Part shown: positions 16,130 to 57,735 of the stretch, piece after piece
Layout of the letters: every line of letters starts with the position of its first letter
Numbering within the stretch: the stretch's first letter is position 1
Origin: Campylobacterales bacterium
Lineage (GTDB): Bacteria > Campylobacterota > Campylobacteria > Campylobacterales > Sulfurimonadaceae
Reading direction: 5' to 3'
Length of the DNA: 57,735 bases
Assembly: GCA_014859655.1 (NCBI GenBank)
Contig: JACUTT010000009.1
Location: forward strand, 1-57,735
Made by a program: the position numbers and the translations under genes
The notes under the pieces: model-generated
The model's input: only the letters and a program-made list of their open reading frames with translations
Told to the model about the DNA's origin: nothing
The model's database searches: none

Positions 16130-16172
16130 AGGGCACCCCTAAAAAAACCCCAACTGCCTTCAGAGGTGCCCT
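16130..16172. mobile_element. Deleted copy of the GGGCACC dispersed element
   Basis: The stretch reads AGGGCACCCCTAAAAAAACC, then the same CCAACTGCCTTCAG loop as the intact palindrome at 26305-26358, then directly AGGTGCCCT. The right arm has lost its TTGGGGTTTTT part. The 16068-16451 interval otherwise holds a CCGGC/GCCGG hairpin near 16089 and the transposase tail listed next. Confidence 0.65.
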
Positions 16173-26304: not shown

Positions 26305-26358
26305 AGGGCACCTCTAAAAACCCCAGTTGCCTTCAGTTGGGGTTTTTAGAGGTGCCCT
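26305..26358. mobile_element. Perfect palindromic 54-bp element (MITE-like)
   Basis: Two perfect 21-base arms (26305-26325 and 26338-26358) carrying the core GGGCACCTCTAAAAACCCC flank a 12-base loop (GTTGCCTTCAGT). It sits in the rhodanese/ttcA gap. Other copies are at 16130-16172, 25324-25336, 31521-31541, 39467-39480 and 57457-57477. The size and perfect symmetry fit a non-coding mobile element, or an excised transposon whose two ends are joined; as RNA it would form a very strong hairpin. Confidence 0.75.
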
Positions 26359-31520: not shown

Positions 31521-31541
31521 AGGGCACCTCTAAAAACCCCA
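31521..31541. mobile_element. Single intact end of the GGGCACC element
   Basis: All 21 bases of one arm match the intact palindrome, followed by AGCAAGAAAAG instead of the loop. It lies immediately downstream of cpoB. A second, oppositely oriented end lies at 39467-39480; together they bracket the segment that separates pal/cpoB from tolB. Confidence 0.65.
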
Positions 31542-39318: not shown

Positions 39319-39466
39319 ACAGGGTCCTAATTATAAAAAATTAATTTATAGTGTAGCCAAAAAAAGAAAAGAATCAATCAGAACATCAAAATATTGGAGT
39401 GATTTTTTCTATTGGCAATGGGGATTTCTATTCTGCACAAAAAGCTGACAGTAGCGCTGTTTTATC

Positions 39467-39480
39467 TTTAGAGGTGCCCT
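39467..39480. mobile_element. Single right end of the GGGCACC element
   Basis: TTTAGAGGTGCCCT is one end of the palindromic element in the orientation opposite to the copy at 31521-31541. It lies between the two receiver genes in a 187-base gap. Confidence 0.45.
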
Positions 39481-57252: not shown

Positions 57253-57425
57253 TCATTTCTGTAGAGACATTGAAAGGTTATATGTAAGTATTCCAAGTGC
57301 TTTGCCTTCTATCGACCACTCTTCTACGATTTTAACGCTTGTTGCTTTTTCTTTTTCTGACAAGGTGTGTGATTGACGGATGGCCTCTTTGATCTTTTTT
57401 ACTGTTCTATATTGTTATGGCTCAC
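57253..57425 (-). pseudogene. Small gene with good ribosome site, broken by one base
   Basis: On the minus strand AAAGGAGG precedes GTG 57425 (MSHNNIEQ then stop). The sequence after the stop continues in another frame as TVKKIKEAIRQSHTLSEKEK ... SIEGKALGILTYNLS and ends at 57253. One A added at GAACA (57403-57407) yields a 57-residue acidic/basic helical protein. The 173-base length is one short of a multiple of three. I do not recognise the family. Confidence 0.5.
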
Positions 57426-57456
57426 AACAGCCTCCTTTAAAATATTTTTTAACTTT

Positions 57457-57477
57457 AGGGCACCTCTAAAAACCCCA
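57457..57477. mobile_element. Single end of the GGGCACC element
   Basis: All 21 arm bases match the intact palindrome at 26305, followed by ACTGTCTTCAGAGG, which matches the loop with one change, then unrelated text. It opens a region of several hairpins that runs off the end of the window. Confidence 0.65.
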
Positions 57478-57735
57478 ACTGTCTTCAGAGGGAAAAAGAG
57501 AGATGAGATTGTGCAGAACTTTTCTTGCACCCCAAGGGTATTTGTCCCTTCGGTCGGGCAAATCATAGCCGTAGCTATGGTGATAGAAAATTGTGTGCAA
57601 GATTTCTCTTTTTTCTTCCTTCGGGCGATAGAGAGATGCCCACACTCTGCGTTGACCCTTCTTGCCTTAGCTATGGCTAAGGCTTCAAAGGGTCGCCTTG
57701 ATTGTGAACATCTCTCTATCGCTGAAGGCATTTGG
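57478..57735. repeat. Multi-hairpin region at the right edge
   Basis: Several inverted repeats are stacked here: TTTGTCCC...GGGCAAA near 57550, CATAGC...GCTATGG near 57567, and a large imperfect hairpin from about 57629 to 57729 whose outer arms share CCTTC and GATAGAGAGATG and whose inner part is GACCCTT...CCTTAGC TATG GCTAAGG...AAAGGGTC. No coding frame here looks genuine. A structured RNA or a palindromic mobile element cut by the window edge would explain it. Confidence 0.5.

Follow-up and report, generated by a model that had tools for sequence, protein, structure and literature searches.

The bcr1 repeat of Bacillus cereus is a short, folding repeat that is said to be mobile. In this it resembles the element described here, from which it is set apart, by its description, in host and in sequence. 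The Correia/NEMIS repeats of Neisseria are likewise short and mobile, with inverted ends, target duplications and a hairpin fold, according to PMC2229807. They differ from the present element in sequence, in length (approximately 107–155 bp), in having TA at their ends and in their hosts. PMC2229807 also presents the CIR repeats of Caulobacter as two long arms with a linker and a fold conserved between genera, as found here. They carry a GANTC motif and lack terminal inverted repeats, whereas the element studied here is closed by an inverted-repeat stem of approximately 30 bp.

The remaining comparison is with insertion sequences of the IS5 family that encode a transposase of the transpos_IS5_4 group (loci L044 and L089 in genome G032 and L090 in G031). 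These share the outer 15–18 bp of their ends with the element and have an AT-rich, 4-bp duplication like that of the element (TTAA in G032, TATA in G050). In contrast to them, the element has no transposase, is approximately 266–295 bp rather than 1270–1350 bp long, and has an interior whose sequence was not seen in the insertion sequence.

The window analysed here is a stretch of 57,735 nucleotides that makes up the whole of contig C23 in an assembly of 2,174,060 bases and 85 contigs. At its right edge, the sequence-only reading had noticed stacked inverted repeats and offered three options: a structured RNA, a larger palindromic element that begins at a GGGCACC end, and an integron-like array. 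The second of these held up, and the other two found no support. We place a probability of roughly 0.88 on the region being a copy of a non-autonomous MITE with ends of IS5-family type, probably mobilised in trans by an IS5 transposase. The features of this copy, all given on the forward strand, are as follows.

57454..57457, forward: left copy of the target-site duplication, TTTA; the same four bases stand beyond the right end, in contig C8
57458..57735, forward: MITE copy truncated where the contig stops (278 bp present, of 295)
57458..57490, forward: left terminal inverted repeat, GGGCACCTCTAAAAACCC-N9-TCAG..., the same end as in elements of other genera
57488..57618, forward: left hairpin arm (inverted repeat I2 plus inner pairs), helices 2–4 of the consensus structure
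57528..57560, forward: 33-bp hairpin-like insert starting CACCCCAAGGG, from comparison with L009, L017 and other genera
57615..57627, forward: small central hairpin, consensus CCTCCC-NNN-GGGC
57625..57722, forward: right hairpin arm with 47-nt arms (I1), consensus helices 6–10
57632..57641, forward: alternative internal right end, AGAGATGCCC, where the copies L003 and L004 end

The GGGCACC end begins at 57458, and the stacked inverted repeats are present: the fold of 57457–57735 reaches −120.5 kcal/mol, compared to −78.7 ± 5.4 in 200 dinucleotide shuffles, none of which folds as well (z −7.69). The arms, earlier put at roughly 40 bases, are 47 nt long in the inverted repeat 57625–57671/57676–57722, where they are 70% complementary and separated by a 4-nt loop. 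A further inverted repeat pairs 57488–57504 with 57602–57618, with 17-nt arms and 97 nt between them. The ends enclose two long arms, each palindromic, and a tiny hairpin at the centre; this 266-bp design is kept across genera via paired Watson-Crick changes. The 33-bp insert at 57528..57560 is missing from most related elements. This second small hairpin, beginning GCACCCCAAGGGYATTT..., lies inside element arms in the own genome (G000) and in G013 (window 57528–57560; loci L120 and L221). It was also seen in G012, outside a recognisable element (one copy read, L038), and the pattern occurs in 3 of 60 genomes.

Neither an rRNA nor an ordinary coding gene, named at the outset as what might explain the structure instead, turned up. 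The region 57457–57735 has 0 Rfam matches at gathering score, and the 110-aa ORF that crosses the element matches no Pfam family. A relaxed Rfam scan of 57300–57735 gave two sub-threshold matches to microRNA models only, which we read as chance hairpin matches. Small ORFs across such copies, like the one of 110 aa here, are not genes, and this is a warning for annotation. The element is described neither in Rfam nor in the literature searched.

The sequence beyond 57735, in which the sequence-only reading had sought its check, was obtained from contig C8. The final 55 bases of the window are the opening 55 bases of C8, the sole such start among the loci fetched, and C8 adds the 17 missing bases, after which the element ends and a matching TTTA follows. 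Owing to the 55-base overlap and the equal flanks, the join is very likely, though not proved. The joined copy is 295 bp long, with inverted ends GGGCACCTCTAAAAACYCC and TTTA on both sides.

This copy has the properties of a MITE. It is short (295 bp) and without its own transposase, has terminal inverted repeats and a target-site duplication (TTTA/TTTA in the window copy), and is one of many dispersed copies. Here, 65 matches to 57440–57735 were found in the own genome, and 18 of the 41 genomes searched with the DNA query, the own included, have matches. In addition, its ends are common to an autonomous element of IS5_4 type, which is carried by relatives of other families and survives as a relic in the own genome. 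The DDE transposase of an IS5-family insertion sequence is not encoded: the ORF has no Pfam match and a PF01609 (DDE_Tnp_1) profile search of the own genome gave 0 matches. At 295 bp and with a 4-bp duplication, the element is also not a 20–40 bp palindrome of REP/BIME type. Our verdict is that this is a new MITE family, ordinary in kind, in which conservation of the DNA fold is unusually strong and outlasts the sequence.

The ends and duplications suggest how it moved. An IS5-family transposase most likely recognised the outer 15–18 bp in trans, and insertion would have occurred at AT-rich sites resembling T-N-N-A, copying 4 bp of the target.

In the own genome, the repeat lies at 31 of the 170 contig termini (17 left and 14 right) and thus accounts for these contig breaks; 2 further matches are on contigs of unknown size. 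The window stops at 57735 because the assembly breaks at this dispersed repeat. The end pattern GGGCAYCTCTNWAAN occurs 109 times, compared to 0 for the reversed pattern. Full copies include L002 (294 bp, ATAT on both sides) and L009 (C69:9231-9495; 265 bp, TAAG on both sides). In L009, the interior of the left arm is inverted relative to other copies, with the TAAG duplication intact. Shorter copies measure 202 bp (TAAA), 195 bp (TATA) and 162 bp (TTTA), and minimal palindromes of 39–56 bp have little beyond the two ends. L003 and L004 both end at the internal AGAGATGCCC with ATAA on each side, which suggests that the left half is able to move by itself. The other copies and ends noted within the window are the following.

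26306..26357, forward: minimal copy, 52 bp, made of two ends set back to back and flanked on each side by TTTA
16131..16171, forward: minimal copy, 41 bp, unequal flanks
31522..31540, forward: solo end, preceded by TATA
39465..39479, reverse: solo end, preceded by TAAA
25326..25336, forward: solo short end, preceded by TCTA

Of the 61 genomes sampled from the family, 26 have the exact end pattern GGGCACCTCTANAAACCC, as do 12 of 18 genera, with 0 matches to the reversed pattern. A longer end pattern matched at least 91 stretches in named genomes and, among the matches listed, all but three are titled Campylobacterota. The titles among these listed matches are Sulfurimonas, Sulfuricurvum, Sulfurospirillum, ‘Arcobacter sp.’ NORP14 and Epsilonproteobacteria, together with MAGs of Sulfurimonadaceae, Helicobacteraceae and Campylobacterales. 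The exceptions among them are a Ruminococcus MAG (L191), an unclassified bacterium (L196) and a Bacteroidetes MAG with a solo end (L201). The first of these, from a gut Firmicute (JAKSQT010000022.1), has a mini palindrome of 51 bp in which these ends recur, flanked by TTAT on each side; unless this contig was misbinned, the end type therefore extends beyond Campylobacterota. A viral collection searched for the end pattern gave 0 matches.

The list of candidate element pairs comprised 63, some of which are plain chance pairs (e.g. L001 410, L005 999, L078 188). Of the 72 distinct full elements of 230–340 bp, 48 are 265 or 266 bp in length. Identical 4-bp flanks are found in 38 of the 70 full elements with readable flanks, compared to 8.5% by random pairing of flanks, and a perfect duplication is absent from the other 32. 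Three copies in G011 (L121–L123) have an extra palindrome of approximately 40 bp in the right arm.

The connection to an enzyme came from genome G032, which belongs to the same order and another family. It encodes a 343-aa transposase that matches NCBIfam transpos_IS5_4 (NF033581; E 1.5e-78) and the Pfam families DUF772 and DDE_Tnp_1, and that lies between GGGCACCTCTAAAAAC and GGGAACCTCTAAAAAC, with TTAA beyond each of these ends. A tblastn search of 60 genomes with this protein gave matches in 5: G032 itself, G031, G050 (fragments), G010 (a fragment) and the own genome, where the relic covers residues 1–103 with 3 in-frame TAG codons. Paired ends are present at G032, G031, G050 and the own relic, and a single end at G010; the IS5_4-type insertion sequence is intact in two relatives of other families. 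Among 30 loci from a broader profile search, properly flanking ends were found only at the transpos_IS5_4 group and at none of the other transposase groups, so that the ends are specific to this group. Neither the own genome nor G044, a closed genome in which such elements occur, yielded an intact transposase with these ends, and the IS5-enzyme link consequently rests on shared ends and not on co-occurrence. Element-rich genomes, G044 included, mostly lack the enzyme. The elements look orphaned here, or else the mover is absent from the assemblies.

Conservation of the fold was assessed using 40 candidate full elements that were left once three chance pairs had been dropped. Of these, 39 were aligned and L124 (331 bp, poor inner match) was excluded; L009 was included in the 39-row fold counts and excluded from the counts of strand symmetry and divergence. 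Mean column identity of the 39 is 52%. Fold prediction on this alignment gave 73 pairs, with two-sided changes in 52. When the alignment was folded for each strand separately (38 rows, without L009), 101 pairs were common to both strands, spanning the arms and the ends. With 39 rows, 92.2% of 3896 cells at these positions are paired, compared to 75.8% when shuffled, and two-sided changes are seen in 74 of the 101 pairs. Covariation is 0.429, against 0.143 for shuffles and at most 0.128 with partners slid; 0 of 500 shuffles were as high on any of five measures. Because these very sequences gave rise to the structure, it is favoured in the comparison with the slides, but this does not account for the double changes. 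The 9 variable bases within the ends agree at 81% between the two ends of one element and at 49% between elements (29 elements), and shared descent explains part of this.

The same pairs were used to ask which molecule carries the fold. The 3795 cells of the 101 both-strand pairs comprise 3421 Watson-Crick, 81 G.T (2.1%), 99 A.C (2.6%) and 194 other; 29 pairs lean to G.T, 27 to A.C and 45 tie. Pairs predicted on one strand only lean to the wobble of that strand (forward-only, 138 G.T and 3 A.C; reverse-only, 15 G.T and 80 A.C), which is a product of the folding rules. A set of 71 elements gave a similar picture (WC 90.4%, GT 2.5%, AC 3.0%). Since G.T and A.C are equally rare, the palindrome that is conserved seems to belong to the DNA and not to one RNA strand, and from these alignments we infer that the DNA palindrome is probably what is kept.

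Why it would be kept can be explained in two ways: a folded single strand or cruciform may aid mobility, or repair between the arms may restore them. In the second, the covariation is unselected, and template switching or arm-to-arm correction keeps the arms complementary. This rivals the account of the fold only and leaves the identity of the MITE as it is; we give it a serious chance that falls short of even. It is favoured by changes that nearly all replace one Watson-Crick pair by another and that affect the two strands equally, as correction of DNA would produce. Against it, compensation is slow, as only 11 of 151 differing pairs (7%) are doubly changed between copies less than 5% apart. 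This value rises to 15% at 5–10% divergence, to 40% at 10–15% and to approximately half at 15–45%. Also against it, close copies differ by 2.3% in paired columns and by 5.0% in unpaired ones, although correction could cause both of these effects.

The pattern reads as slow compensation at the DNA level, for which folded-DNA selection and arm-to-arm correction are both possible causes. That the folded DNA itself is selected, with mobility or host tolerance depending on a single-stranded or cruciform fold and the 266-bp design (a closed stem, the two arms and the central hairpin) kept across genera for that reason while roughly half of its letters change, is a tentative proposal to which we give about one chance in three. 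If true, a structure in DNA would be subject to compensatory selection over the long term, within a transposon of which the enzyme is expected to recognise the ends alone. With dozens of full copies that can be aligned at about half identity, the family offers a clean test of whether palindromes in bacteria are selected as folded DNA or as RNA.

A structured non-coding RNA gene, whose fold would act in the RNA, is improbable. The strong fold and strong covariation would suit it, and transcripts of known MITEs fold stably, according to PMC10969869. However, the region matches no described family at the Rfam gathering score, and copies have target duplications and lie at scattered sites. Selection on one RNA strand should favour G.U, and the conserved pairs have no preference for G.U over A.C, with the caveat that insertion in two orientations could expose both strands to RNA selection.

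The MITE reading is also preferred to that of an autonomous insertion sequence whose end runs off the contig. Such an end is indeed common to IS5_4-type insertion sequences, but the window copy stops 17 bases into C8 and two-ended copies in the own genome are at most 294 bp and without transposase, so this is very unlikely. The start of an integron-like cassette array is the least credible of all: imperfect palindromes that conserve fold rather than sequence resemble attC sites, but full copies here are single and scattered and not tandem attC cassettes, have transposon-like ends and 4-bp duplications (38 of the 70 scored), and the window element ends 17 bases into C8.

The own genome also has approximately 45 solo ends (e.g. 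window 25326, 31522 and 39465; L050–L052 and L227–L244). In their layout, TNNA precedes 10–20 bp of the element end, unrelated DNA comes next, and no right end lies within 400 bp. TNNAGGGCACCTCT occurs 113 times, compared to 0 for the reversed pattern. Solo ends were considered as excision footprints with repeated flanks, which failed for most of them. They were also considered as a host regulatory motif, which was weakened because, among 60 genomes, those without the full end pattern have few or no matches to the solo-type pattern TNNAGGGCACCTCTA. A 662-bp pair of ends (L068, contig C52) was considered as an autonomous copy and rejected, as it has a host-like ORF inside and its flanks differ. 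Finally, a solo end is surrounded by one and the same stretch on contigs C39 and C40 (L061 and L062), suggesting some redundancy of the assembly.
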